A stretch of DNA of 64,000 nt from Mytilisepta virgata (Eukaryota; Mollusca; Bivalvia; Mytilida; Mytilidae): NCBI GenBank assembly GCA_028015205.1, contig CM051513.1, positions 48,054,841 to 48,118,840 on the forward strand, in the 5' to 3' direction. Below, one piece after another: positions 5,089 through 48,800 of the stretch. Numbering within the stretch: position 1 is the first letter of the stretch; each line of letters starts with the position of its first letter. Under the pieces are notes generated by a model. That model saw only the letters and a program-made list of their open reading frames with translations, was not told the origin of the DNA and made no database searches. A program made the translations under genes and the position numbers.

Positions 5089-7258
5089 TTATTTGAATAA
5101 AGACATAACAATTTTGCAAAATTTTGCCAGGCCAATAAGTGTATATTTATCGTGACTATTCATTAACTCATACAGGCTAATAATGTTACTGTTGCTATAG
5201 ATATGAAGAGGTATAAATTTCTGTCTTTCAGCAGTAAAAAAAGTTACAATTAAATATGTAATGAAACTCATCACCTAGTTGTTCCTTATCACATAGATCA
5301 CAAATTCTTTCAGATCTATCAATAGAAAAAAATCTACCAGCCTCAATTGGCAAATTGTGACTTCCACATCTAAATCTAATAATATTATACATCAAATCAG
5401 TTGGGAGAACAGAGAGATATTTCTCAAAACCAAAGTCAGTCTTATAAATTCTATAATTGTTACACTTAGGTGAGTTAAAAATTTGTGCTTTCCAATTTTC
5501 AACAAATTTTTCACGAAGAAACTGTTTAACTTGTCTTGACAGAATAACATTTCTTTCTACAGTTTGGTTATTCCAACAATGAATATAACCACATTCAAGT
5601 AAAATGTCTTTGATACATAATAACCATTTAGAGTGATACACATCACCTTCGTCAAGTCTAACTAACATATCATATAAAGTGCGAGATATTTTCTCTTTTT
5701 TACCATTTAAAATACGTTGCCAAAAACCAATCATTCTGGATTTAATACAAATAGACATAGGTACTCTACCAAGCTCTCCATACACAATACAAGTTTGAGT
5801 ACATTTTTTAATCTTCAAAATATATTTGCAAAATTCTGTATGTAAAGATTCAATAATATCATTGTTTTCGTAACCCCACACTTCGGCACCATATAACAAT
5901 ATAGGTGCAACCATTGCATCAAATAATTGTAACAAAATATCAATTGGTAAACAAAGTTTTCTCGCTTTACACAATACATAAAACATGGCCTTCCTAGCCT
6001 GTTGGACTAGTCGAGCTTTATTTTTTGAAAATGTACCTTTTCTTGAAAAAACTGTACCCAGATATTGAAAATCTTCTATAACATCTATTTGTTCATTATT
6101 ATATAAAAACTGAGTATTCTCACACTGCCTATTTTTTGAAAATATAACAACATTGGTCTTAGCTACATTGACTTTGAGTTTCCAGGTTTCACAATACAAA
6201 AACATAGCATTTAGTGCAGATTGCAATTCAGCGGCAGATTCTGCAAAAATAACAGTATCATCTGCATATAGTAATAAATACAATTTAAAGTAAACTTCAA
6301 TATTATCATTATCAAACAGCAAGTGAGAAATATTACATACATCATTAAGACCATCATAGGCATGAGATAAGAACTCTGTCAGATCATTAAGAAAAATTGA
6401 GAATAACAAAGGAGACAGGTTTTCTCCTTGTCTGACTCCTACATTTGAGGCAAAATATTCAGAGAAATTATTACCTTCTCTTACACATGATTTTGCATTT
6501 TCATACAGATTCTGTACAACAATAAGCATTTTACCATCAATACCATTTCGTAACAATTTTTGCCATAGTAAAACTCTACTAACCGAGTCAAATGCTTTTT
6601 GAAAATCTACAAAGGCACAGTATAACTTTTTCCTTCTAAATAAGTATAGATCAATTAGACATTTCAAATTAAAAATGTGGTCAACAGTACCGTAACCCTT
6701 TCTTAAACCAGCTTGCTCTTCACATAACAAGCCTAAACTTTCAAGATACTTAAATAATCTATTATTGAGTATACAGGTAAATAATTTTCCAAAACAGCTT
6801 AATATAGTTATACCTCTATAATTGCCAGGATCTGCAGGGTCACCCTTGTTTTTAAATAGAGGGCATATATAACCCTGACACCATGTTTCTGGTACTATAC
6901 CGCTTTCAAAAACAATATTAAAAATTTTCATATAAACAGGTAAAAGTTTATTTACTGCATGCTTCAAAAACTCATTGAGTATCATATCTTTACTACAAGC
7001 TTTATCATTTTTCAGTGACTTAATTGCATCAAAAACCTCTTTTTCGCTGATAGGCTCATTAATAACAGTATTATATTCAGTAATATTATCAGGTAAAACA
7101 ATATCTACATCATTTTCATCTTTATTCAAGTTCTTGAAATGATCAAAAAATAAATTAATAGCTACTTTTTGCTGTGCTTTACCTTTGTCACAACCTCTAT
7201 TTAACATAGACCAATACGTTTTAGGGTCAGAGGTACGCAGACCTCGAAGTTTAGTCAC
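5089..7258 (-). pseudogene. LINE reverse transcriptase, frameshifted
   Basis: Encodes the RT of the LINE and copies element RNA at the target site. The main 676-codon frame (7258-5228) has, counted from 7258, the finger motif NYRGITILS near 147, AFVDFQKAFD near 215-224, GVRQGENLSP near 274-283 and the catalytic LLYADDT with YADD at 331-334, then thumb sequence and a C-terminal CDLC…DEFHYIFNC knuckle typical of mollusc LINEs. The frame breaks at an A7 run (about 5234) and continues in another frame to 5089 (…LAKFCKIVMSLFK), which is the expected LINE C-terminus. There is no ATG at the start of the open frame because translation should come from upstream. Confidence 0.85.
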
Positions 7259-10723: not shown

Positions 10724-10969
10724 TTGAAATCAAATTTATATTGTAAAGCAAACGAAAAAACTATCACCAGGTACCAGTTTCCCTATGTTTTAAAGAAAAC
10801 TGTTGCCTTTTTAGAATATAATCCTTCAGATATCAATACACATTCCTTACGTATAGGCGCAGAACCAAAGTCTTTTCTTGATGGTGTAAATGAAAATAGT
10901 ATCAAAGTAAAAGGTAGATGGGAATCATCTGCTTACAAAGGTTATATTAGAACTAACCTTATAGAGTAA
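10724..10969 (+). pseudogene. C-terminal fragment of DIRS tyrosine recombinase
   Basis: The 81-codon frame carries the C-terminal signature of tyrosine recombinases of DIRS-like retroelements: NTHSLRIGA (H-x-x-R, with the catalytic arginine), then KGRWESSAYKGYIR, holding the GRW motif and the nucleophile-region tyrosines. These enzymes integrate circular cDNA without a target duplication. The N-terminal part, with the first catalytic arginine, is missing. DIRS elements encode RT and recombinase, and both remnants lie in the same orientation 60 bp apart, so they came from one insertion. Confidence 0.7.
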
Positions 10970-14932: not shown

Positions 14933-15213
14933 TTAAACACTTGCAAATCTTCAAGGGGCACTGGTGGAAAATTAATTTTACTTTCTTCACTGTCATACAT
15001 TTCCATCTCATTAACTCTTATCTTTATTATCAGATTTGTAAAAAGTTACATACATGTTAATTTTCACAACTAGCTGGCAATCAACCATTACAATAGATAA
15101 CATGTTATAGTCACTTTCTTAAAATTTGGCTTTCGTAATTATGACCATGTTCAACGATGTGAAGCTTTGTATCTAGTAATTGTACATATAATTTTTTTTT
15201 TTTGGTGACCTCA

Positions 15214-17190
15214 TGTAACGAAAGCGGGGTTTACCCTGATCTGGGTCCGGCCTGCGCTTTCGCTCCAGGACTTCAGACAACAAAGTTGTAACTAGTTAAA
15301 TATCCATCAAGTATTAACGTAAATTCAAACCGAAGTTCACCAAAATATTTAAATATGCCCGCCACTAAATTTCAATATAAATTATAACCTAAGATATTTA
15401 TTTTCTAACCCGCTCTGTAATTTATATCATACTAGTCAATAAGCATGAAGCATACAAGTTAAGTCAATGATGTTGCATTTCTAAATGTATGTAGTCAATG
15501 AAACTGTATATTTTAGGAGAAGAGTTAATAAAGCACTATGTGAACTCGTGAAAAGTCAATGAAGTTCTACACTTTATGTGATATGAAACACCTCACATAT
15601 ACTATACTCTCTCATGTACACAGACGGACAGACTTCAAATAAGCATGAGCAACAACAAGCTCGAAGGGCTAACCAGATGTAATTTACAATACTCAACTCT
15701 ATATTTCATATATAACACCGTGGAAAATATTCACAGACAGATTTACAGAATATGAGCAAAAGTAGCTCACTCGAGCGCATGTGCCTGCCCGGGTACAATG
15801 CAATCTGAAAATAAACAGTTCCTATGTTAACCTGAGTCGACAGACAGACAGACCCTAAGAAGTGTGTCAACAAACAATGTAAACGTACAGCTCAAAGGGG
15901 GCACTTCAAGCTAAAACCTAAATAAATTTGATAACATCTTTTGAATTCTTTTCATCAAAGTTCAGGAACAAGACCAAAATATACCATGAATTTCCTATCA
16001 ATATAATCTGCCTTTTATTCAAGTAAATTTTAACCTAAACTAGTTCAATTCGAACTCAAGATTCCACTCGCCAATTTCTATAAATAAATATCTAATTTTG
16101 ACACTTCTGACTAATGGATTTGATAGAATCAAATCAGGGAAAATTCAACACCAGATGACCTTCAAACTGGGGAGATAACTGGCATAAGTAATCAAGATGT
16201 TTACATGATACAATTTATTAACAAGACCAACAAATATTTATTACAATCAATACTGTGTTTTAATAATCTGAATCTTTACAAGTTCTTCAGTTTTGTTTAT
16301 GTTAACATAGTGTCTGACCTGTGTCAATTTCAGTGTAAACTTAATTTATAAATAGAACAGGATACCAGTCAAAGTTTCCGGCTTGCTCCTTTTAAACTCG
16401 TTATAACAAATCAGGCCCAATCGCAATTCTGTAAAATATCTTTATCTCACAAAAAACGAATTTGTCCCAAAAGTTTTCAACCTGTAGTAAATTATTTATT
16501 AACCGTCAAATACAGGTAGTGTGCCAAACAGACGAAAACTAACCTTATTCAATCTGATGCGAACTACCCAAAAAGCTTCATCCTAAATATTCGGATTAAA
16601 TACGCGCTATAACACTTGAAAAATTCACCGACAAATGCCTAAATTCTCCACATGCCTCGATGCATATAAATATTAAGACAACGCGGCCATTACCTTTCGT
16701 AAATCACATTGGAGCAAGCCTGAAACTTTAAATTACGAGCCAAATATTTTACCAGGGGACATTTTCTTACCAGACAACGGTTCCACAGCCGTCAAATAAA
16801 TTTAAAGGTAGCAAAACTACGCGTTGGAGGGAGCCACCCCCTAAATTTTCAAGAAAATCACGACTGTACCTCCTTTCAGTTCTAAATCCTGGTCCAGAAT
16901 GCCATGCTAGCAGACAACCGCCTGCACGGACTTTTCAACCGCGGGAAACAATTTAAGCCTTCTGATTGGTCAAAACATCAAAAATACTTTTATTGGACCA
17001 AATTAATAAAACGGGGCTGAAAAACGGAGGAGAACGGGAAATGTAATATTTGTGAAATAAATTTTTATAAACAGATCGGCAAAACTTAAAATAATACAAA
17101 AATAACAAAACTAATAAACAAATAAAAATAATTGAATGGTAAAAAAAATAAATCTGTTGAAAAAAATAAAACCAAGTCTCAAACGTTACA
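15214..17190 (-). repeat. 3' LTR of the Gypsy element
   Basis: 1,977 bp. Each stretch I compared matches the other LTR at a constant offset of 10,119 with no difference seen. The terminal 7 bp form the inverted repeat TGTAACG/CGTTACA. A 97-codon frame crossing its edge is not supported as a gene. Confidence 0.95.
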
Positions 17191-17204
17191 TTACCCCCCT
17201 CCCT
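17191..17204 (-). other. Polypurine tract
   Basis: On the sense (minus) strand AGGGAGGGGGG followed by TAA directly precedes the 3' LTR TGTAACG. This is the plus-strand primer position of LTR elements. Confidence 0.8.
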
Positions 17205-17502
17205 ATCCGCAAGATATGTCCTCATATCATAGTGTTCCATCGGCATATTATTATTAGTTATATCCCTCCTTGCTTGACAACTGTGGAAACGTCGTGTTAT
17301 TCAATGCAGCAAAACAGTCATTGAATATCTTATAATACAATTCCAACTACAATTACATAAATATAAAAAAAATACTGCAGTCGGAAGAAAAAAAAAAAAT
17401 TACTCCACATTTATATTGGTACCAACCAACCACTCCATAAAAAAAATCAGTTTAAAAACAATTTCAAGTTATGCCAATCTCAGTCTTATTTTCAAAGTGT
17501 AA

Positions 17503-18081
17503 TTAGTTTGACAGTCGTCTTAACGCATATAAAGCAGCTCTCTTCAGGTCATAATAATAAGACTTTTGTTTTGATTTTTGAAGATGAATTCCATCTCCTG
17601 AAAGACAATGTATCTAACAAGTTCTTTTTGGGTTCCAAAATTTAACTGACGACGCAAAAGTGTTAGCAACTAATCTACTGATTGCAAAGTTAACCTGAGA
17701 CCTTCGAGCAGTGTATAAAGCAGGAGAAGTCCTACATACCAATCTATGAAATAATTTCACAACTATAATCTGCTGAACCCCTCTATCTAATAAAACTCTT
17801 AGAAGATGTTCAAAATTAATCATAAAAGTATTCAAATTGAAATCTTTACTATCAATATCATTGCCACCCACTTGTAAAATCACAACATCAGGGTGAATAA
17901 CGTCCAATAACCCTTCTGACAATAATTTATCTGTCAATTTTATAACATTAAAACCACCTTTTCCATACAAAAATCCATTAACCCAGGAAATATTATAATT
18001 AACTGGCAAATTATTTGTTCTACAATATTCTCCTAACCTTCTTATATAACTATGACCAATTGTTACAACCATTGGATTCAT
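17503..18081 (-). CDS. SGNH/GDSL-hydrolase-like ORF in the Gypsy element, one in-frame stop
   Basis: ATG at 18081 opens a 155-codon frame stopped by TAG at 17614-17616. The same frame then continues 36 codons to TAA at 17503-17505. Motifs match SGNH hydrolases: block I VVTIGHSYIRRL with serine 11, a glycine block GKGGFN near 40-45, block III LQVGGNDID with N74, and block V SGDGIHL with D163 and H166. Block V lies only in the part after the TAG. Such enzymes cleave esters; the substrate here is unknown. The ORF is in the sense orientation between pol and the PPT, where env genes sit in retroviruses. SGNH/esterase domains are known in ORF1 of CR1-type LINEs and, as I recall, in Ngaro-type retroelements, but I know of none as standard in Ty3/Gypsy. 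The stop could be mutation, readthrough or sequence error. Confidence 0.7.
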
Positions 18082-18167
18082 TTCAATATTTTATATTAAC
18101 CTCTCACTTATTGTACTAAGTTAATTTAATCTAATTTGTTACAGAGCTATATCTAAAATTCAGCAAC

Positions 18168-18190
18168 CCTGAAAAATAAATTAAAAAAAT
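18168..18190 (-). promoter_or_regulatory. Candidate 3' splice site upstream of SGNH ORF
   Basis: On the minus strand TTTTTTTAATTTATTTTTCAG is followed by GGTTGC, with AG at 18169-18170. It is a strong pyrimidine-rich acceptor 87 nt upstream of the SGNH ATG. It would allow the ORF to be expressed from a spliced subgenomic RNA in the way env genes are. Confidence 0.5.
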
Positions 18191-18959
18191 TATAAGTATT
18201 TTTGTTACCTAATATGTAAATTTTGTTATATGAAAAAAAAATTAGGTATATTTATGCCTGTTTCTATAACCATTTCTGATGATTAAATTTTTATACATAA
18301 TATCAATAAATTTGCAAAAATAAAAATGTCCTTCTTGATTTAGCACTCAATCCAAACAAAAGTTCTTTCTCCCAAAATAAGTATACGGCCAAACGAATAG
18401 GAATTCCAGCATTACCATCGTTGGAAGCTAAACTTGTTTAAAATTCTAGGCGGTTCATCTTCGGATGACATCTAACAGAATTATTTTCATTCAGGCACAG
18501 GAAAACGGACTTTAGTAAACTGCAAATGACAGGTTTTACTCGTATAATTAAGCCATACAAGACTCTAAAGTTGTGTAAATCATCAGGAAATTCCCTTCAT
18601 CTTGAACTCGAAACTATGTATAAAGTTCAATTTAATCAGCACATATTAAGACCTAAATGTACTTTAGTTGCACCTGGTATAATGCATTTCCATTCATAAA
18701 ATGGACACACAAATCTCAAGTCTCTCTGACAATACTCATTTAAGTTGAGCTCAAACAAGTATTATAACATGTAAAAAATGTCAGTACTCCAGCTTTAGTA
18801 ACTGTTTACTACATTGGACATAACTATCACTGTTGATTAGTAGAAGTTTGAAAAGTTCATAAAGAATCCGATTTTCCGTCATCTTAATCTTCACTCAGTA
18901 ATCCAGAGATAAAGTTCCATACAGTAATAATGAAAATAATCCTCAACATGTAATCTTGA
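18191..18959 (-). other. Gypsy 3' region, no gene seen
   Basis: AT-rich internal sequence of the retrotransposon without a recognisable frame. Confidence 0.4.
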
Positions 18960-19163
18960 TCATCCAGATACTTTAGGCAATCGCACAAATTCTATGTTAC
19001 CCTGAAGATACGGAAAATGGCAACAATAGTTCCATGGTTCATCAACGGGCGTAGACGGATAAGGGGAGACAACCACGATCCACCAAGCTCTACTCCAACG
19101 TTGTAAACCACGAATGAGTGCCAAATCCCTATCACCCTTAATTATTTTTTTTTTTAAACACAT
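18960..19163 (-). CDS. Unrecognised 67-codon ORF in Gypsy 3' region
   Basis: A minus-strand frame with coding-like composition, richer in G+C than its surroundings: GDRDLALIRGLQRWSRAWW, then PYPSTPVDEPWNYC. It starts at an ATG and stops at TGA (18960-18962). It lies between pol and the SGNH ORF in the same orientation. It may be a small accessory protein, an exon joined to the SGNH frame, or the residue of a longer decayed ORF. No family recognised. Confidence 0.35.
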   Translation of the reverse strand: MCLKKKIIKGDRDLALIRGLQRWSRAWWIVVVSPYPSTPVDEPWNYCCHFPYLQGNIEFVRLPKVSG

Positions 19164-19241
19164 TATAAATAGAATGAGGGTTTAGCCAAAAAATTAAAAT
19201 AAATTACCATTATATATTTACTTCAAATTCAGTACACAATT

Positions 19242-19464
19242 TTTTTTTTTTTTTTATTTTTTTTTTTTTTTTTTAATAGCAAAAATCAAACTTCAAATCT
19301 TTTAATATAAAATTTTAACTTTTCTTAATTTTCAAATAAGAAACCCTCTCTCTTTACATTACAGATCTTAATTAAAATATATGCATTTTTCAGGTTCAAT
19401 ACACTATATGTATATTATTTTCTCTACCCAAGATTTTATTTTTATGTTGTATTCTATACACAAG

Positions 19465-19491
<27 letters not shown>
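19242..19491. repeat. Two long T tracts (A on element sense strand)
   Basis: Near-pure T runs at about 19242-19275 and 19465-19490. On the element's sense strand they are poly(A)-like tracts lying 3' of pol and 5' of the small ORF and the SGNH ORF. Confidence 0.7.
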
Positions 19492-19495
<4 letters not shown>

Positions 19496-19499
19496 AAAA

Positions 19500-20156
19500 T
19501 TTAAAGTCTGACCTGGGATGTACCAACTTTTAAAAACATTAACTTAAATCACCAACAAAGGCATTTAAATTTATCACTAAAAAACTTCAATTTTTACATA
19601 GTTAATCGGGAACTTGTGTTGAACACCGGGCAATTTTGGCCACACAATGCGAACACAAGACCCAATCATCTAGGGACAATTTTAAAAAGAAAAAATACTA
19701 CAAGACCAAGTATGTCTCGTATAATCAAATATTTACAATTCCAAACATTCATTTCTGACACCAAAATATTCAGAAACTTGCATGTGAATTCCACATGGGG
19801 AACCCAAAATAGTAAAAACATTCAAATAATCACATCCCAGGCAAACCACTGTCATGTTACTTCAAATATTGCATACTTCATATATACACAAAAAAAAAAT
19901 CCTTCAAAATGTGGAGTTTACATTTGTATAATGGAGTGGTGGTGGCAACAATAACTATTATACACAAATATTTAAAACAATACAAAAACAAGACCAACGA
20001 GACATGATTCTGGACCACTGACTCGGAGTCGTACTCTTTTTAAATGTTTTTAAAATTCTTTAAAAATATTCTACAATATGGCTTTTAAAAAAATTCAGTT
20101 TTCATAAATGTTAATTTGAAAGTCTGAAAAGCTAAAACTTTATACTATATTTTGAA
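19500..20156 (-). other. Gypsy sequence after pol stop, no gene seen
   Basis: Untranslated internal sequence. A plus-strand frame at 19616-19954 is antisense and has no recognisable content. Confidence 0.4.
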
Positions 20157-23100
20157 TCAATAAACTAAATAATCTTGAAAACGGCGAGGCAATCGTCGTC
20201 TTCGTCTTCCCTGGCTAGGTAAAGGGGACCTTACCGATTGATCGAACACACCCCCCTCATCTTCTTCTCCCAATGAATCAGAATCCCCCTCCCTTTCCTC
20301 ATCTAAACTAGGTTGGGGAGTATTTACAGAATTCCCAATAATCCTAGAGGGATGTGGTATATGATAAAACTTTAACCTGTTAAAATGAACTACTTGCTTA
20401 ACCAGTGACCCCTCCCTCTGTACTACATAGTTCGCATCTGACAATTTCTTAACAATTCGGAAAGGGCCATCCCACAATTTTTGCAATTTAGGAGATAATC
20501 CTTTTTTTCTGCGGGGAGTAAATAACCATACTAAATCATTCTCTTTATATGGTTTCCCAGACTGACGCAAGTCATAATTGACTTTCTGTCTCCTCTGTTG
20601 TGTTTTCATATTTTCCCTAACATGTCTAAAAATACTGCCAAGTTTCTTCTGTAAACTAGTAATAAATTGTAAAGGGGAGGGCGACTCGGAAGGCAACTCT
20701 TCATACAAGAGAGTTAGTGGAACATTTATTTCCCGACCAAACATCAATTTATTTGGAGTCATGCCTGTAGTTTCCTGCACACTGGATCGGATAGCCATTA
20801 ATGCAAGGGGTAAACATTCATCCCAATCTGTCTGGCCTTCATCAATATAAGAGGCAATAACATTTTTGAGGGTATTATTCATTTTCTCAACTAACCCATC
20901 AGTCATAGGATGATATGCTGTTGTTCGAGTCTTATAAATTCCCAACAACTGACATAAATGCTGAAAAAGTTTGGACTCAAAGTTGGCCCCCCTATCTGTA
21001 AGCAAAATTTTTGGAACTCCAAAACGTGAAATAAAATTGTTGACCAAACACCTTGCCACAGTAGCACTCTCTTGATCAGGAATGGGATACGCCTCCACCC
21101 ACTTTGTAAAATAATCCATGACCACCAAAATGTATTTATTGCCGTATTTAGTAACAGGAAATGGCCCAGTTATATCCATTCCTACCCTTTCTAAAGGTTC
21201 TCCTACCCTAATATTTTCCAATTCTGCCCTATTCATTCGGGGGGGATTTTTCCTAGCACAACAAGTAGGACAACTTTTAATCCAATCCAAGACATCACTC
21301 TGTAAATTAACCCAATAAAATTGTTGTCGAACCTTAAGAACTGTTTTTCTAACACCCAAATGACCCCCAGTAGGACTATCATGAGCCATTGAGAGAATTT
21401 TTGGTTTTAAACTGCCTGGGGTAAGAATTAATAAGGAATCATCCCCCTCTAATCTAAACCATTTCCGGTATAAAATCCCATCTTTTATCTCTAACTGACC
21501 CCACATATTCCAATATGTTTTCACCACACTACTATGAGCCGAAACTTCTGAAAAGGGGGGTTTTTCTGTATTATTTTTTAGAAATCCCATAATTAAATGA
21601 ATATCAGGGTCCTCTTGTTGAGCTTTAATTATCTCCCCTGAATTGAGGCTTGTAGCTTTTATTGCAGCAACCTCAGGATATCGGGACAAGGCATCGGCAT
21701 TTTTATGACGAGGCCCCGCACGATATTCAAATTCAATATCATATGAAGCCAAAAATTCAATCCATCTAGCCACTTGGCCGTGAGGTTCCTTAAAATTTCT
21801 CAGCCAAGTGATAGATCCATGATCAGTTCTGACTGTAAATTTTCTACCATAAAGATAATGTTTGAAGTGTTTCACAGACTTTATAATTGCCAAAAGTTCT
21901 TTTCTTGTAGTACTATAATTCATTTCTTGGGGAGAATGAGTTGTGCTATAATAAGCAACAACCCTTTCTAACCCATCTGATCCAATTTGTGAAAGTACAG
22001 AACCTATAGCTTTGTCACTTGCATCACAGTCTAAAATGAAAGGTTTTGTAAAATCCGGGTATTGTAAAACTACTGTTTCAGTCAAAAACGTCTTCAATGA
22101 GTCAAATGCCCTCTGACAATTTTCATCCCAAGAGAATTTATTATTCTTTTTGGTTAAATCAAATAAAGGGGTTGCAATTTTTGAAAAATCACGAATAAAT
22201 CGTCTATAATAGGAAGCCAAACCTAGAAATGATCTAACCTCTTTTAATGTTTTTGGAACAGGCCAGTTTTTAATTTTTGCTACTTTATCTGGGTCACACT
22301 GAATCCCCTTCTCTGATACAATATGGCCCAGATATTTCACTTCTCTTTTAAACAAGTGACATTTCTTGGTTTTTAATTTCAATCCAGCAGATTTAAACCT
22401 TTTAAAGACAGTTTCCAAATTTTGAACATGTTCTTCAAAAGACTTGGAAAAAATTATGACGTCATCTAAATATATGAGACATATTTCCCAATGTAAACCA
22501 GACAAAATTTTCTCCATTAAACGCTCAAAAAAACTAGGGGCATTTGCCAATCCAAAAGGTAAGGTATTAAATTCATAAAGACCCCTTCCTGTGCTAAAGG
22601 CAGTCTTCTCTCTACTGTCGGGATGAACTGCCGCCTGCCAGTAACCACTAGCCATATCGACCGTACTATAATAAACAGAATTTTGGAGGGCATCTAGGCT
22701 AGAATCTACCCTAGGAATAGGATAGGCCTCTTTTTTGGGAATTTGTTCATTTAAACGTCTAAAGTCGATACAAAATCTGAATGAACCATCACTTTTCTTT
22801 GTGAGAAGCACTGGAGAGCAATATGGGCTCGATGAAGGACTTATAACTCCCTGTTTTAACATATCATTGATCTGTTTTTCAACTTCTTCCCTCATATGCA
22901 CTGGTAATCGGTAAGGACGAATTTTAAAAGGGGGGTTATCACCTGTATCAATAACATGTTGTAAAATATCAGTATGTCCTAACTTTCCATCCTCCCCTAC
23001 AAATATTTCCGAATAATTGTCTAATAGCTTCTCTACCTGAGACTTTTGACCCTCTTCTAGATTCTGATTAGTTTCATCAATAAGTTTTTGTAATAAAGAA

Positions 23101-23885
23101 TCCCTAGGTTTCTCCCCCTTTTCACTTATTTGAGTACAAATTTCTACTGGATGTAAAAGTCCAACCCCCATGTTTGCTGGAATTATACAGGGCTCTTCAG
23201 AAACATTCATCATTCTAATAGGAACTCGGTTACCCTTAGTATTAACTAATGTTCGACCGACCAAAACAGAATAATTTTGTGATAATAATGAACTCATTGG
23301 TTCTATTTGACCTTCCGGATACCAATCCCGACGAGGTTTAATTTTTCCCCAAACTATAATTTCAGAACTGGGAGGTATATATGTATCTTGTACTAATGAA
23401 ACCTTGCAACATAATTTCCTAGGCTCAGAAACCAACGTATAAATTTTCCCTTCAACTCTCAAAATCTTTTTCTTAAAATCAATCCGGGCACCAAATTTTT
23501 CCAAAAAATCAACCCCCAAAATTCCAGCTTGAGGTATATCAGCTACCACAACTTGTTGAGTAAAAATATGAGTACCTAATTTCAAATCTAAGGGAACTGT
23601 ACCCAGGGATGTAACAACTTCACCACTAACAGTTTCAAATTGTAAACCATTGTTCTGTAATGGATATTGACAAGATTTCCCTTGTGAAATACAATGAAAC
23701 ATCTCAGTATTTATCAAAGATATAGAAGATCCTGTGTCCAAAAGAAATCTAATTTTATCATCCCCAATTTTTGCATCCAAATACAATGCAGAAATAGTGC
23801 TATTTTTCAGGGCCCGGGTGTGTTCATTAGGCAGATGATTGGCCCCCTCACCTGCCTTTAATGGTTTAAAGGACGATATGGACAA
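20157..23885 (-). CDS. pol: Pol polyprotein: protease, RT, RNase H, integrase
   Basis: About 1,242 codons in the -1 frame relative to gag. There is no ATG at its start, as expected for a Gag-Pol frameshift product. Counted from 23885: aspartic protease FLLDTGSSISLI (DTG 50-52); RT with TVDMASGYWQ (D410) and IYLDDVIIFS (YLDD 472-475); RNase H with DCDASDKAIG (about 619-628), E663, TDHGS (D688) and HKNADALSR (D731); integrase zinc finger H835, H842, C872, C875 and the DDE core D904 (GMDITGPFP), D964 (LTDRGANFE), E1000 (DGLVEKMNNTLK). The C-terminus has a GPFRIVKK module and an acidic tail, with no chromodomain. All catalytic residues are present. It matures to the enzymes that copy and integrate the element. 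Confidence 0.95.
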   Translation of the reverse strand: MSISSFKPLKAGEGANHLPNEHTRALKNSTISALYLDAKIGDDKIRFLLDTGSSISLINTEMFHCISQGKSCQYPLQNNGLQFETVSGEVVTSLGTVPLDLKLGTHIFTQQVVVADIPQAGILGVDFLEKFGARIDFKKKILRVEGKIYTLVSEPRKLCCKVSLVQDTYIPPSSEIIVWGKIKPRRDWYPEGQIEPMSSLLSQNYSVLVGRTLVNTKGNRVPIRMMNVSEEPCIIPANMGVGLLHPVEICTQISEKGEKPRDSLLQKLIDETNQNLEEGQKSQVEKLLDNYSEIFVGEDGKLGHTDILQHVIDTGDNPPFKIRPYRLPVHMREEVEKQINDMLKQGVISPSSSPYCSPVLLTKKSDGSFRFCIDFRRLNEQIPKKEAYPIPRVDSSLDALQNSVYYSTVDMASGYWQAAVHPDSREKTAFSTGRGLYEFNTLPFGLANAPSFFERLMEKILSGLHWEICLIYLDDVIIFSKSFEEHVQNLETVFKRFKSAGLKLKTKKCHLFKREVKYLGHIVSEKGIQCDPDKVAKIKNWPVPKTLKEVRSFLGLASYYRRFIRDFSKIATPLFDLTKKNNKFSWDENCQRAFDSLKTFLTETVVLQYPDFTKPFILDCDASDKAIGSVLSQIGSDGLERVVAYYSTTHSPQEMNYSTTRKELLAIIKSVKHFKHYLYGRKFTVRTDHGSITWLRNFKEPHGQVARWIEFLASYDIEFEYRAGPRHKNADALSRYPEVAAIKATSLNSGEIIKAQQEDPDIHLIMGFLKNNTEKPPFSEVSAHSSVVKTYWNMWGQLEIKDGILYRKWFRLEGDDSLLILTPGSLKPKILSMAHDSPTGGHLGVRKTVLKVRQQFYWVNLQSDVLDWIKSCPTCCARKNPPRMNRAELENIRVGEPLERVGMDITGPFPVTKYGNKYILVVMDYFTKWVEAYPIPDQESATVARCLVNNFISRFGVPKILLTDRGANFESKLFQHLCQLLGIYKTRTTAYHPMTDGLVEKMNNTLKNVIASYIDEGQTDWDECLPLALMAIRSSVQETTGMTPNKLMFGREINVPLTLLYEELPSESPSPLQFITSLQKKLGSIFRHVRENMKTQQRRQKVNYDLRQSGKPYKENDLVWLFTPRRKKGLSPKLQKLWDGPFRIVKKLSDANYVVQREGSLVKQVVHFNRLKFYHIPHPSRIIGNSVNTPQPSLDEEREGDSDSLGEEDEGGVFDQSVRSPLPSQGRRRRRLPRRFQDYLVY
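23829..23870 (-). promoter_or_regulatory. Gag-Pol -1 frameshift signal
   Basis: The sense strand carries the canonical slippery heptamer T TTA AAC (plus 23864-23870) in gag frame, two codons before the gag stop. After a 6-nt spacer, AGGCAG (23852-23857) can pair with CTGCCT (23829-23834) across a 17-nt loop. The G/C-rich loop can further pair with GGGCCC at 23810-23815 to form a possible H-type pseudoknot. Slippage on the heptamer joins gag exactly to the pol frame (PLKAGEG). Confidence 0.8.
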
Positions 23886-25201
23886 TCCCTTTTAAAATGC
23901 CCTGGATCACCGCAGTACCAGCATCCCTGATCCCAATTCTGAGTTTGATTATATAGGAAGGTGGGGTCATACATGTTTGGATTCACATTTCCTGTGAACT
24001 GACTAACTCTTCCCCAATTTTGATCATAACCGCGTCCCCTTGTTTGGTTTTGATTCCTATTCCCCAGAAAATTTGATCTATTATTATTATTTTTAACCTT
24101 AGTTTCGCCTTTCGCCTCGCGTTTTGTTCCGGAAGATTTACTCACGGACAACCGGGCAACTTGTTCTTTTAATTCAGTTAACTGTTTTGACAAATCGGAA
24201 TAAACATCAGTTTCAGTTACAGATTGAATCCTAGGTCGCTTCTTTTCTAAAGCAACATATGATTCCTCTCTAAGTGCCAAGTCAACAGCAGTGGCTAAAG
24301 TTTTAGGACTAAGTCGTCGAACCTGTTTTTGAACTTCAGAATCACTAAGTGCATCAATAAAATACTGAATCGACATCTTTTGTTTCGAATCTGCGTCAAT
24401 AGTTGGGTATGCCTTAGCAACCAGACGAAAGACAGCAGATGACAATTGCTGTAAACTTTTGTACGATCCCTGAGACATACCATGAAGTTGACTTAAATAT
24501 ACCCCAGGGTCTTGAACTGGGTCGAATTTTTGAATTAAAGTTTCTTTGAGAGTTTTATAATCTCTCTTTTCTTCAGAGGTCATGTCATTATATAGTTGTA
24601 GAGCTTGTGCTCTTAAATATGTAGGTAAAATACAAGTGGATTCTTCATCACTCCACTGGTTTATTATTTTACAACCCTCAAAATTACTCAACCAATCCCT
24701 GATGTCTAATTGTTTACCATCATAACACATGGGGGTTGTTATCGGCTTGTTTGGACGTCTTAAAGTTGCAGAGTTGTCCGCGAGCTTAACATTGTCCGTC
24801 CTATGAGGTATTTGATCACGCGGATGAGGGTGGCTCCCTCGCTCCGATATCAATGGTGTACTAACACGAGGTTCACGTTTAGTCACGAACGCGTCCCACT
24901 CACGGGGAACATCAGGTGTTTCAAACTGATCACCAAGATATGTACTCTCATATCTTTGGACTTTATCCTCACCATGCTTATTTTCAACTATACGACTTGG
25001 CGAAAATGTAATGCGTCTTGCACCTTGAGGTGTTAACTCGGGCATATCAGGAGTCCCATTCTGTTTAGGGATAGCACCCCTACCAAAACCAGTTTTCCTA
25101 TCATGAACTGGGGTTTTATCAACTTCCCCTCTTCCTAACCCTACTCTACTAGCCGCCATCGACTTTTCATATCTATCTATTCTCCTCTTTAACTCCTCCA
25201 T
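23858..25201 (-). CDS. gag: Gag protein of the Gypsy element
   Basis: Structural protein that packages element RNA into particles. I start at the ATG at 25201 (context GAGATGG), giving 447 aa; the frame is open 5 codons further upstream but without ATG. Visible parts: a charged N-terminal segment (MEELKRRIDRYEKSM); a capsid-like region about 155-315 (DIRDWLSNFEGCKI, YLRAQALQLYNDM, KFDPVQDPG); a short coiled coil near 335-352; an N/R/G-rich basic stretch; and one CCHC zinc knuckle, CWYCGDPGHFKRDC, at 427-440 near the C-terminus. The stop TAA (23858-23860) lies inside the frameshift signal, and the ORF overlaps pol by 28 nt. Confidence 0.93.
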   Translation of the reverse strand: MEELKRRIDRYEKSMAASRVGLGRGEVDKTPVHDRKTGFGRGAIPKQNGTPDMPELTPQGARRITFSPSRIVENKHGEDKVQRYESTYLGDQFETPDVPREWDAFVTKREPRVSTPLISERGSHPHPRDQIPHRTDNVKLADNSATLRRPNKPITTPMCYDGKQLDIRDWLSNFEGCKIINQWSDEESTCILPTYLRAQALQLYNDMTSEEKRDYKTLKETLIQKFDPVQDPGVYLSQLHGMSQGSYKSLQQLSSAVFRLVAKAYPTIDADSKQKMSIQYFIDALSDSEVQKQVRRLSPKTLATAVDLALREESYVALEKKRPRIQSVTETDVYSDLSKQLTELKEQVARLSVSKSSGTKREAKGETKVKNNNNRSNFLGNRNQNQTRGRGYDQNWGRVSQFTGNVNPNMYDPTFLYNQTQNWDQGCWYCGDPGHFKRDCPYRPLNH

Positions 25202-25313
25202 CTCTGATAATTCCAATTCAACACAAAAATAAAAACAATAATATCCTTAAAAAATGAACCAATATTTATCAACCTCAATAAACCCAATTCACATTTATAA
25301 ATTAAAAGAGGGG

Positions 25314-25331
25314 GTCCCTACGTGGGCGCCA
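25314..25331 (-). other. Primer binding site
   Basis: TGGCGCCCACGTAGGGAC on the sense strand, one base inside the 5' LTR. It starts TGG, complementary to a tRNA 3' CCA, and implies a tRNA with a G discriminator base. It matches the lysine-tRNA-type PBS at 14 of 18 positions, so the exact tRNA is not settled. Confidence 0.8.
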
Positions 25332-25332
25332 A

Positions 25333-27309
25333 TGTAACGAAAGCGGGGTTTACCCTGATCTGGGTCCGGCCTGCGCTTTCGCTCCAGGACTTCAGACAAC
25401 AAAGTTGTAACTAGTTAAATATCCATCAAGTATTAACGTAAATTCAAACCGAAGTTCACCAAAATATTTAAATATGCCCGCCACTAAATTTCAATATAAA
25501 TTATAACCTAAGATATTTATTTTCTAACCCGCTCTGTAATTTATATCATACTAGTCAATAAGCATGAAGCATACAAGTTAAGTCAATGATGTTGCATTTC
25601 TAAATGTATGTAGTCAATGAAACTGTATATTTTAGGAGAAGAGTTAATAAAGCACTATGTGAACTCGTGAAAAGTCAATGAAGTTCTACACTTTATGTGA
25701 TATGAAACACCTCACATATACTATACTCTCTCATGTACACAGACGGACAGACTTCAAATAAGCATGAGCAACAACAAGCTCGAAGGGCTAACCAGATGTA
25801 ATTTACAATACTCAACTCTATATTTCATATATAACACCGTGGAAAATATTCACAGACAGATTTACAGAATATGAGCAAAAGTAGCTCACTCGAGCGCATG
25901 TGCCTGCCCGGGTACAATGCAATCTGAAAATAAACAGTTCCTATGTTAACCTGAGTCGACAGACAGACAGACCCTAAGAAGTGTGTCAACAAACAATGTA
26001 AACGTACAGCTCAAAGGGGGCACTTCAAGCTAAAACCTAAATAAATTTGATAACATCTTTTGAATTCTTTTCATCAAAGTTCAGGAACAAGACCAAAATA
26101 TACCATGAATTTCCTATCAATATAATCTGCCTTTTATTCAAGTAAATTTTAACCTAAACTAGTTCAATTCGAACTCAAGATTCCACTCGCCAATTTCTAT
26201 AAATAAATATCTAATTTTGACACTTCTGACTAATGGATTTGATAGAATCAAATCAGGGAAAATTCAACACCAGATGACCTTCAAACTGGGGAGATAACTG
26301 GCATAAGTAATCAAGATGTTTACATGATACAATTTATTAACAAGACCAACAAATATTTATTACAATCAATACTGTGTTTTAATAATCTGAATCTTTACAA
26401 GTTCTTCAGTTTTGTTTATGTTAACATAGTGTCTGACCTGTGTCAATTTCAGTGTAAACTTAATTTATAAATAGAACAGGATACCAGTCAAAGTTTCCGG
26501 CTTGCTCCTTTTAAACTCGTTATAACAAATCAGGCCCAATCGCAATTCTGTAAAATATCTTTATCTCACAAAAAACGAATTTGTCCCAAAAGTTTTCAAC
26601 CTGTAGTAAATTATTTATTAACCGTCAAATACAGGTAGTGTGCCAAACAGACGAAAACTAACCTTATTCAATCTGATGCGAACTACCCAAAAAGCTTCAT
26701 CCTAAATATTCGGATTAAATACGCGCTATAACACTTGAAAAATTCACCGACAAATGCCTAAATTCTCCACATGCCTCGATGCATATAAATATTAAGACAA
26801 CGCGGCCATTACCTTTCGTAAATCACATTGGAGCAAGCCTGAAACTTTAAATTACGAGCCAAATATTTTACCAGGGGACATTTTCTTACCAGACAACGGT
26901 TCCACAGCCGTCAAATAAATTTAAAGGTAGCAAAACTACGCGTTGGAGGGAGCCACCCCCTAAATTTTCAAGAAAATCACGACTGTACCTCCTTTCAGTT
27001 CTAAATCCTGGTCCAGAATGCCATGCTAGCAGACAACCGCCTGCACGGACTTTTCAACCGCGGGAAACAATTTAAGCCTTCTGATTGGTCAAAACATCAA
27101 AAATACTTTTATTGGACCAAATTAATAAAACGGGGCTGAAAAACGGAGGAGAACGGGAAATGTAATATTTGTGAAATAAATTTTTATAAACAGATCGGCA
27201 AAACTTAAAATAATACAAAAATAACAAAACTAATAAACAAATAAAAATAATTGAATGGTAAAAAAAATAAATCTGTTGAAAAAAATAAAACCAAGTCTCA
27301 AACGTTACA
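25333..27309 (-). promoter_or_regulatory. 5' LTR with candidate promoter and splice donors
   Basis: Sense strand reads from 27309 to 25333. U3-like features: TTTATAAAAATT near 27180, a GACCAATCAG CCAAT box near 27080-27090 and another CCAAT near 27115. Good 5' splice donors occur further in, CTG|GTAAGA at 26890/26889 and AAG|GTAATG near 26812. Either could pair with the acceptor at 18169 to make a spliced RNA for the SGNH ORF. The start of transcription is not defined by sequence. Confidence 0.6.
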
Positions 27310-27374
27310 CTCAACTGGGGGGGGGGGGGGCACGTGCTCCCTGTGCCCTCCCCCCTCAGCTAAATCCGCCACTG
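27310..27374. mobile_element. CAGGGGCG-ended DNA transposon, right portion
   Basis: Begins with the Gypsy TSD CTCA, has a G14 run (27317-27330) and ends CTAAATCCGCCACTG at 27374, followed by ACCTA. It is the other end of the transposon that starts at 13478. Confidence 0.7.
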
Positions 27375-45800: not shown

Positions 45801-48800
45801 GACCGCTGATAGGATTTTGTTAAAATTTTGTAGGATTGCTAGTCACCATATGTACTTGAGTCTCTCGCACCGCCATTTTCATTTGACAAATTTTACGGGA
45901 GTTATGGGACTTTAACTTTTTTCCTGTATTTGACACTATAGGAACACTTTGTGGACGTAACTCCTCTGAGACCACTGATCAGATTTCGTTCAAATATTGT
46001 AGGATTGTTAGTCACCACATGTTCTTGATCCTATGGAACGTGATTTTGATTCAATAAATTTTACGGTATTTATGGGATTAACGTTTTTGTGCATGTGACA
46101 CTATACAAACACTTTCTGGACGCAACTCCTCTGAGACCACTGATCGAATTTCGTTCAAATTTTGTAGGATTGTTAGTCAACTTTTGTACTTGATCCTATC
46201 GCACCGCGATTTTGATTCGACAAATTTTACAGAAGGTATGGGACTTTAACTTTTTCCTGCATTCAACACTATAGAAACTTTGTGGATGCAACTCCTCTGA
46301 GACTGCTAATCAGATTTTGTTCAAATTTTGGAGGATTGTTAGCCATCACATGTACTTGATCCTATCGCACCACAATTTTGATGAGACAATTTTTATGGGA
46401 GTTTAACTTTAACGTTTTTGTGCATGTGACACTATAGAAACACTTTGTGGATGCAACTCCTCTGAGACCACTGATCAGATTTTGTTTAAATTTTGTAGGA
46501 TTGTTAGTCATGTACATGTACATGTACTTGATCCTATGCCGCCATTTCAATAATACATGTATATATCTTGTGGGGCTTCGACTTTTCTCTGCGGCAGGGG
46601 ACATATGGCTACATGTAGCAATCTTGTTTAATTTGTCCTGAACAATTTTTTGTAATTTTTTCTTGTCCATTTCCGGTGAAATCTGTGATTTATTTCATGG
46701 TGTCTGTTTCCGGTTCACGAAAGATAAACAGTTTTTGCTTTCATACCTTTTGTTGGCCATCTGAAGTGAGAAAAGGGAATGATATGCATCCAATTTGATG
46801 ATACAAAAAGAATATTTAACATATACCTTGATATTGTGAGTGGCCTTGTCAAACATAAGTACCCTGTTCTGGACTTGCCAACAGCAAGAAATTGCCACAG
46901 TAGTATCATGGTAGCATGCTCACCTCAATTGCATAAGATGCGGGTTTGTTTTCTGGCCAGGTCAAACCAAAGACCTTAAAATTGGTATTTGCTGCATCAC
47001 TGCCAAGCATGCAGCATCTAGGAGTATGAACAAAGGACTTGTTTTACCAGAATGTGCAATTAACGTGTCCTGCACGGGTGTTATGTCTTCCTGCAAACTT
47101 TTACTTCGTGAGCTAGTACATTTAAAATCTGGTTCAGTTGATGATATAGTTTATATAGACAAGAAGTAGTAAGCAATCAGAAAAAATGTATATTGAGATT
47201 TCTAGGAAACTATTAATGACACACATAAAAACAATATGTGCATGTGTATGACATTACAATCAGGAATGTCACTTGGTTTATCAAATATGAAAATTTGTAC
47301 TTAAAGATTATCCAGTTTATCAAATCTAAATAATTTAATGATCTTGATTAGATTAATCTAACTATATTAATTGAAGAATCTTTACGGTCTTCTAAATAAC
47401 AATCGAAAGATATAGTTAATACTATGCTGTATACATGTACGACGCATTTCAAGGAGATACCTCTCATCAGCAGCATTAAAACCGAAACACCTACTTGACA
47501 GAATTATTGTTTGACAAATTTTCATACCTGTATCGCCAGAATGTGAAAGCATGTTCCAATTCTCTTCAAAGGTAACCACAGGTCTGAGAGTCTTGGGTCT
47601 ATTATGTTCCAATCCCCTTAAAGGGTAAGCACAGGTTTAAGAGTCTTGGGTCTATCATGTTCCAATCCCCTTCAAAGGTAACCACAGGTCTAAGAGTCTT
47701 GGGTCTATCATGTTCCAATCCAATTCAAAGGTAATCACAAGTCTGAGAGTCTTGGGTCTATCATGTTCCAATCCAATTCAAAGGTAACCACAAGTCTGAG
47801 AGTCTTGGGTCTATCACATTCCAATCCAATTCAAAGGTAACCACAAGTCTGAGAGTCTTGGGTCTATCACGTTCCAATCCCCTTCAAAGGTTTCCACAGG
47901 TCTGAGAGTCTTGGGTCTATCATGTTCCAATCCCCTTCAAAGGTAAGCACAGGTCTGAGAGTCTTGGGCCTATCATGTTCCAATCCCCTTCAAAGGTAAC
48001 CACAGGTCTGAGAGTCTTGGGCTTATCATGTTCCAATCCCCTTAAAAGGTAACCACAGGTCTGAGAGTCTTGGGTCTATCATGTTCCAATCCCCTTCAAA
48101 GGTAACCACAGGTCTGAGAGTCTTGGGTCTATCACGTTCCAATCCCCTTCAAAGGTAACCACAGGTCTGAGAGTCTTGGGCCTATCATGTTCCAATCCCC
48201 TTCAAAGGTAACCACAGGTCTGAGAGTCTTGGGCCTATCATGTTCCAATCCTCTTCAAAGATAACTACAGGTCTGAGAGTCTTGGGTCTATCATGTTCCA
48301 ATCCCCTTCAAAGGTAACCATAGGTCTAAGAGTCTTGGGTCTCTCATGTTCCAATACCCTTCAAAGGTAACCACAAGTCTGAGAGTCTTGGGTCTATCAT
48401 GTTCCAATCCCCTTCAAAGGTAACCACAGGTCTGAGAGTTATGGGTCTATCATGTTCCAATCCCCTTCAAAGGTAAGCACAGGTCTGAGAGTCTTGGGTC
48501 TATCATGTTCCAATCCCCTTCAAAGGTAAGCACAGGTCTGAGAGTCTTGGGCCTATCATGTTCCAATCCCCTTCAAAGGTAACCACAGGTCTGAGAGTCT
48601 TGGGCCTATCATGTTCCAATCCTCTTCAAAGATAACTACAGGTCTGAGAGTCTTGGGCCTATCATGTTCCAATCCCCTTCAAGGTAACCACAGAGAGTCT
48701 TGGGTCTAATCTATATCCAGTGAAAAGAAAAAGAAAAATAAAATGTCAATTTGAAAACTTCATGGATTCACATGAATTCTTCAACTGCATGCTTTTCCAT

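Follow-up and report, generated by a model that had tools for sequence, protein, structure and literature searches.

The window (the whole stretch of DNA analysed, 64,000 nucleotides) contains one complete copy of an LTR retrotransposon, which occupies positions 15214-27309 on the minus strand. Its components, in order of position, are the following:

15210..15213, read on the plus strand: target site duplication CTCA, left copy, flanking the LTR
15214..17190, minus strand: 3' LTR, 1977 bp, TG...CA, identical to the 5' LTR
17194..17204, minus strand: likely polypurine tract, judged from its purine-rich sequence 3 bases from the 3' LTR
17506..17613, minus strand: ORF3 frame beyond the stop, 36 codons with DGIH (translation)
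17614..17616, minus strand: premature in-frame stop TAG, unique to the window copy among the 18 listed copies
17614..18081, minus strand: ORF3, SGNH/GDSL hydrolase, 155 open codons with GHS, glycine block and GGND (Pfam and relatives; fold predicted from the intact relative P0001)
18082..20156, minus strand: pol-to-ORF3 interval, 2.1 kb, with acceptor-like sites at 18169 and 19002
20157..23885, minus strand: pol, with protease, RT, RNase H and integrase in a single open frame (Pfam)
23858..25216, minus strand: gag, 452 aa, with a Ty3 capsid-like match and a CCHC knuckle (Pfam)
23864..23870, minus strand: TTTAAAC, plausible -1 frameshift site in the gag frame, right before the gag stop
25314..25331, minus strand: primer binding site TGGCGCC..., with one base between it and the 5' LTR (sequence)
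25333..27309, minus strand: 5' LTR, 1977 bp (LTR comparison)
27310..27313, read on the plus strand: target site duplication CTCA, right copy, flanking the LTR

The LTRs end in TGTAACG...CGTTACA and, because the two are identical, the insertion in the window is very young. The TG..CA LTR pair, the primer binding site and the target duplication are those of a Ty3/Gypsy element, and so is the domain order of the 1242-aa pol frame (PR-RT-RH-IN, Pfam). The integrase is of the rve type (Pfam), and the tyrosine recombinase that replaces it in the DIRS order is not what this element carries. In gag, zf-CCHC scores above the Pfam cut-off, while the Ty3_capsid match (E 2.5e-5) stays under its own. The TTTAAAC heptamer is a plausible candidate for a -1 frameshift joining gag and pol, and we take TGGCGCC... 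to be a primer binding site of a known type. A long sense ORF was looked for in the interval between pol and ORF3 and none was seen; 315 bp separate the end of the ORF3 frame from the 3' LTR. Elsewhere in the window, a 676-aa open frame on the minus strand (5228-7258) resembles a LINE-type reverse transcriptase by eye, a tandem array with a period of ~53 bp occupies 47550-48708 (self-matches), and further self-overlapping repeats lie near 45.7-46.5, 51.3-51.9 and 56.7-57.4 kb. No tRNA or Rfam match was obtained for the window.

ORF3 is located on the minus strand in the same sense as pol, between pol and the 3' LTR and within one LTR pair. The sequence-only reading had described 17503-18081 as a single sense ORF in the env position with all four SGNH blocks, without naming the strand. 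Its position, its orientation, the enclosing LTR pair and three of the blocks (GHS, the glycine block and GGND, all in the open part) hold; but the frame is not one ORF, as a TAG interrupts it after 155 codons and leaves the fourth block, DGIH, with D163 and H166, past the stop. A readthrough signal was looked for by eye after the TAG, and none was recognised. Because the stop precedes the catalytic Asp/His block, the product of the window copy would presumably be truncated and inactive. The stop may date from the latest round of reverse transcription or from the time since insertion, or it may stem from a source element that others helped. As evidence for a gene, the length of ORF3 alone is modest (when the region was resampled 2000 times, a chance ATG frame of at least 155 codons came up in 4 cases, and the longest chance frame in a separate 500 resamples was 187), and homology is far stronger.

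By homology and predicted fold, ORF3 is an SGNH hydrolase. For the open part, the Pfam match is Lipase_GDSL_2 (E 3.3e-6, short of the cut-off that Pfam itself sets), and ORF3 matches the database relative P0001 at E 2.4e-79. P0001 (192 aa) is 79% identical, aligns without gaps over the whole frame and has all the SGNH blocks, its retrieval as an ORF being biased towards intactness; a second relative, P0002, is 85% identical and has a predicted start after the Ser block. Alignment A3 comprises 15 relatives and the window piece, and every one of these 16 sequences matches Lipase_GDSL_2 (E no higher than 0.01); wherever a member covers the Ser, Asn, Asp or His column, the residue is retained. Against the PDB, the A3 profile finds SGNH enzymes, including ZfL2-1 ORF1 (4c1b, E 1.4e-6) and PAF-AH. 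The structure model, made for the intact P0001 and not for the window's own protein, has a pLDDT of 93 and the alpha/beta/alpha SGNH fold, and it gives fold matches. The SGNH identity proposed from the letters of the DNA, which a profile search without any SGNH match could have overturned, is upheld by the Lipase_GDSL_2 match, the profile and the predicted fold. In a scan of hydropathy alone, neither the window piece nor P0001 showed an evident signal peptide or a membrane span (19-residue maxima of 1.31 and 1.44); the higher maxima of P0002 (1.67) and of P0006 and P0007 (1.8) are located in the enzyme core. ORF3 has few cysteines and few N-glycosylation motifs. The few named relatives, Pinctada, Mizuhopecten and Pecten, agree with the sequence-only reading in suggesting a bivalve host.

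The family was traced through 1.03 Gb of genome, in which the match lists for ORF3, LTR and pol are lower bounds. The open part of ORF3 has at least 82 matches, of which 19 represent 18 copies of the family (98-100% identity) and 63 are divergent. The 192-aa frame with GHS, GGND and DGIH is kept in 15 of the 18 listed copies, so the claim that all four blocks are carried, which fails for the window copy, is true of these 15; the Ser, Gly, Asn and Asp-x-x-His blocks that define SGNH membership occur in one protein in the same 15 and in P0001, and not in the window copy. The three altered copies are the window copy (stop), L014 (stop and frame change) and L018 (small duplication and changed end). 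Downstream of ORF3, the 3' LTR sequence aligns in all 18 listed copies, and upstream they are also colinear with the window element (L014 for only ~290 bases). A 610-base LTR query gave 51 matches at 40 places, 11 matches being second pieces of split ones. LTRs are found on both sides of 14 listed ORF3 copies and on one side of three, and none is listed for L004. Measured between low coordinates, the LTRs of 12 of the 14 two-sided copies lie 8.7-9.2 kb upstream of ORF3 and some 0.9-1.0 kb downstream of it; those of L002 and L015 are farther away. Equal scores of the two LTRs against the query, which young insertions should give, were obtained for 12 of the 14. Of the 40 listed LTR places, nine are more than 40 kb from any listed ORF3, and none of the nine pairs with another; an LTR pair lacking ORF3 is thus absent among the 40. 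Two listed copies in opposite orientation, L009 and L010 (C13:14.18-14.20 Mb), have their ORF3s ~6 kb apart.

Pol gives the same picture. It is found at at least 18 places at 97-100% identity, the next best among the matches listed being 47%, and comparison of the ORF3 and pol lists places ORF3 downstream of 17 of the 18 listed family pol places. At two of these, on C8, ~10 kb separate pol from ORF3, presumably through later insertions. The place without ORF3, on C9, matches the element only to window position 19240 and the next 4.3 kb hold nothing of it, so that a cut or a later insertion is possible there. A one-off insertion or chance frame is ruled out by the homology to P0001, the 18 listed copies, their colinear flanks and the pol places; related copies lacking the ORF, which would have spoken against the earlier claim that it is part of the element, did not appear.

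Selection was assessed from polymorphism in 16 copies with both pieces, homopolymer surroundings being masked; L014 (non-homologous upstream) was left out, as was L004 from the 16-copy count (partial pol). The p values are only a guide, given few sites, linked and non-independent copies and uneven mutation, and shared changes are taken to have passed through replication unless recurrent. Changes common to two or more copies occur at 1 of 576 sites in ORF3, against 34 of 2359 in noncoding and LTR sequence (Fisher p 0.009), and the sole shared ORF3 change is silent. The RT control behaves alike, with 4 of 1002 sites, all silent, against the same 34 of 2359 (Fisher p 0.007). Private changes (ORF3 15, RT 18, noncoding 54) display no depletion (p 0.65 and 0.43), those in RT being 13 N to 5 S. 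Without masking, 17 copies give shared changes at 1/576 against 41/2472 (p 0.0025) and private ones at 15/576 against 88/2472 (p 0.31). Across 17 copies, and with homopolymers counted, ORF3 has 2 indel events relative to the window copy, while the other three regions together have 108. Within ORF3 the N:S count is 11:4 with 2 stops, a per-site ratio of 0.75 that is close to neutral, as expected if most changes arose after insertion; by itself it gives no support. Together these counts hint that ORF3, like RT, is conserved during replication of the element and free to decay after insertion.

A rival view is that a successful element acquired the SGNH gene on a single occasion and multiplied it along with itself, with no benefit from it. 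The youth of the family, the near-neutral N:S of ORF3 and the alteration of 3 of the 18 listed copies, the window copy among them in spite of its very young insertion, are all compatible with such a passenger, and the available part of a study of rotifer LTR elements with similar genes reports no significant departure from neutrality (PMC5408684). However, shared changes are depleted in ORF3 as they are in RT, and P0001 preserves the whole frame and its blocks at 79% identity, although its retrieval favoured intact ORFs and P0002 begins past the Ser block; we regard a mere passenger as unlikely. We give still less weight to a protein used without catalysis, for example as a lipid- or protein-binding fold, in which case even the truncated window product might act. 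Rotifer Athena-L elements offer a precedent in GDSL derivatives without catalytic residues, according to the accessible text of PMC5408684, but here none of the 15 intact listed copies has lost GHS, GGND or DGIH, and no covering member of A3 departs from the catalytic columns.

The env position, together with a weak acceptor-like site 88 bases 5' of the ATG, might suggest a substitute envelope for cell-to-cell transfer. The hydropathy scan, the scarcity of cysteines and N-glycosylation motifs and the compact soluble enzyme fold predicted for the protein make this very improbable. Nor does ORF3 show the signal peptide, TM anchor and fusion protein of an errantivirus-like envelope: it is a predicted enzyme fold, signal and TM having been judged by hydropathy scan only. 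Hardly credible is the nested insertion of a separate mobile element or gene into one Gypsy copy; SGNH ORFs are indeed common in other repeats of the genome, but ORF3 occupies the same place in the 18 listed copies, with LTR pairs around it and colinear flanks (L014 over only ~290 bases upstream). An old insertion that has since turned into the gene would be equivalent to the capture model.

We therefore consider it probable that this is a recently active Ty3/Gypsy family with a captured SGNH/GDSL esterase as its third gene and as a normal part of the element. An orchid Ty3/Gypsy element has reportedly captured a demethylase domain. ORF3 would be made from its own, probably spliced, mRNA; the acceptor-like sites at 18169 and 19002 are weak candidates under splice matrices, a site as good as 18169 within 300 bases arising in 4.6% of 1000 resamples and several sites elsewhere in the element scoring higher. 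The product may be an intracellular (cytosolic) acyl or lipid esterase that would help particle assembly, trafficking or release at membranes and would be selected while elements replicate. This putative function is modelled on the ZfL2-1 LINE esterase. The 18 near-identical listed copies, 15 of them intact, and the RT control hint that the esterase is maintained, and comparing active sites would offer a straightforward test of its role.

The same genome holds other SGNH carriers. Two divergent families, L030/L031 and L032, have the SGNH ORF as their first ORF, followed by gag-like frames and by an RT together with RNase H; their RTs (L031-type against L032) are 48% identical. In L031 recombinase-like frames follow, with a weak Phage_int_SAM match (E 0.0026) and the motif GHSFRIGAA...GRW, which we take to be typical of tyrosine recombinases, while the sequence of L032 ends before that point. 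A recombinase-looking fragment at 10724-10966 (plus strand) of the window is 35% identical over 72 aa to the L031 recombinase-like frame and has no Pfam match. Comparison of the 63 divergent SGNH places with 75 L032-type RT places (75 of 2926 candidates scored) yielded 19 same-strand pairs, where ~0.06 would be expected by chance, with RT always 2.2-4.5 kb downstream of SGNH. Among the listed Gypsy pol places, those that come next in similarity (38-47% identity) number 19, and none of them has an SGNH place less than 15 kb away, so that SGNH is not a general need of such elements; the list scored 37 out of 6890 candidates, and of its 21 matches under 50% identity two were second halves. Two further SGNH families, present in several copies within repeats, showed neither Gypsy nor YR-type RT in the sequence covered: the L020 type (L020-L024, L026-L028) and the group of L029, L036 and L037. 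A weak LINE-type match occurs in L034 (31% over 84 aa), and a related antisense ORF is common to L024 and L037. In a tree of 27 SGNH proteins the clade of ORF3, P0001 and P0002 is solid (100/99), and ORF3 is not placed beside the YR-linked genes.

The presence of this gene type in a different retroelement order of the same genome speaks for accessory-gene exchange, and exchange of SGNH genes between retroelements is likely; the partners of the Ty3/Gypsy family may have been tyrosine-recombinase retroelements. More tentatively, and with somewhat more doubt than belief, retroelements of the host lineage might share a pool of SGNH esterases: YR elements would have it as first ORF, other mobile repeats would carry it too, and one Ty3/Gypsy family would hold it in the env position, kept by selection for a lipid-directed job met elsewhere by Gag, Env or ORF1.

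Searches for a direct counterpart were negative within their scope. No report of an SGNH/GDSL ORF in a mollusc Gypsy element was found in the literature searched, an incomplete library judged by titles and the starts of abstracts. The words "esterase" and "ORF" are absent from the available main text of a mollusc LTR survey (PMC6238403), as are "esterase" and "hydrolase" from the accessible part of PMC12440569, and SGNH occurs in PMC7599744 and PMC9025612 only in the reference lists. In viral contigs, no relative turned up with either pol or P0001 as the query.

Among known systems, the SGNH fold (by the 4c1b match) is shared with the ORF1 esterase of the CR1/L2-type LINE ZfL2-1, an enzyme with ester-hydrolysing and phospholipid-binding activity (PMC3905857, available part); that protein, however, is an ORF1 with a coiled coil in a gag-like position of a non-LTR element, whereas ORF3 is the third gene of an LTR element. 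The catalytic subunits of PAF acetylhydrolase Ib are cellular enzymes with 17-18% identity. Amphibian Ngaro-like elements (DIRS order) carry an SGNH ORF, as stated in the accessible portion of PMC9210276, and the sequence-only reading, which placed such genes in Ngaro-type elements, is thus right for amphibians. There the gene follows the YR recombinase gene, while in the window it follows the pol of an integrase-bearing Gypsy element, and in the YR-type L030/L031 and L032 it comes first, ahead of gag. The A3 profile matches the toad protein P0023 across 185 columns (E 3.9e-13), but the bacterial GDSL control P0024 aligns almost as well (E 6.9e-11), and the match to P0023 hence shows membership of the superfamily only. 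That P0023 is a Ngaro product is our own guess.

The closest parallel is offered by bdelloid rotifers. Within the available text of PMC5408684, Vesta LTR retrotransposons carry GDSL esterase ORF3s, GDSL ORFs are common to other retroelements of these animals, and the rotifer LTR elements are described as having captured GDSL and exonuclease ORF3s in which no sign of selection was found; the rotifer case is also cited in the part of PMC5718144 at hand. The element is consequently not the previously undescribed system that it was first thought to be. Vesta and the window element are both LTR elements with gag, pol and then a GDSL/SGNH ORF3 without an evident TM domain, a gene type found in other retroelement classes too. 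They differ in that the pol of Vesta has a dUTPase between PR and RT, while none is listed for the window pol at E up to 1 (Pfam), and in that Vesta belongs to another phylum and presumably another lineage, with neutrality reported there against depleted shared changes here. ORF3 is probably a capture independent of that in Vesta, the Vesta ORF3 having been compared by its published description. What is new here is a GDSL ORF3 in what appears to be another phylum than the rotifers, of a kind that is already known.
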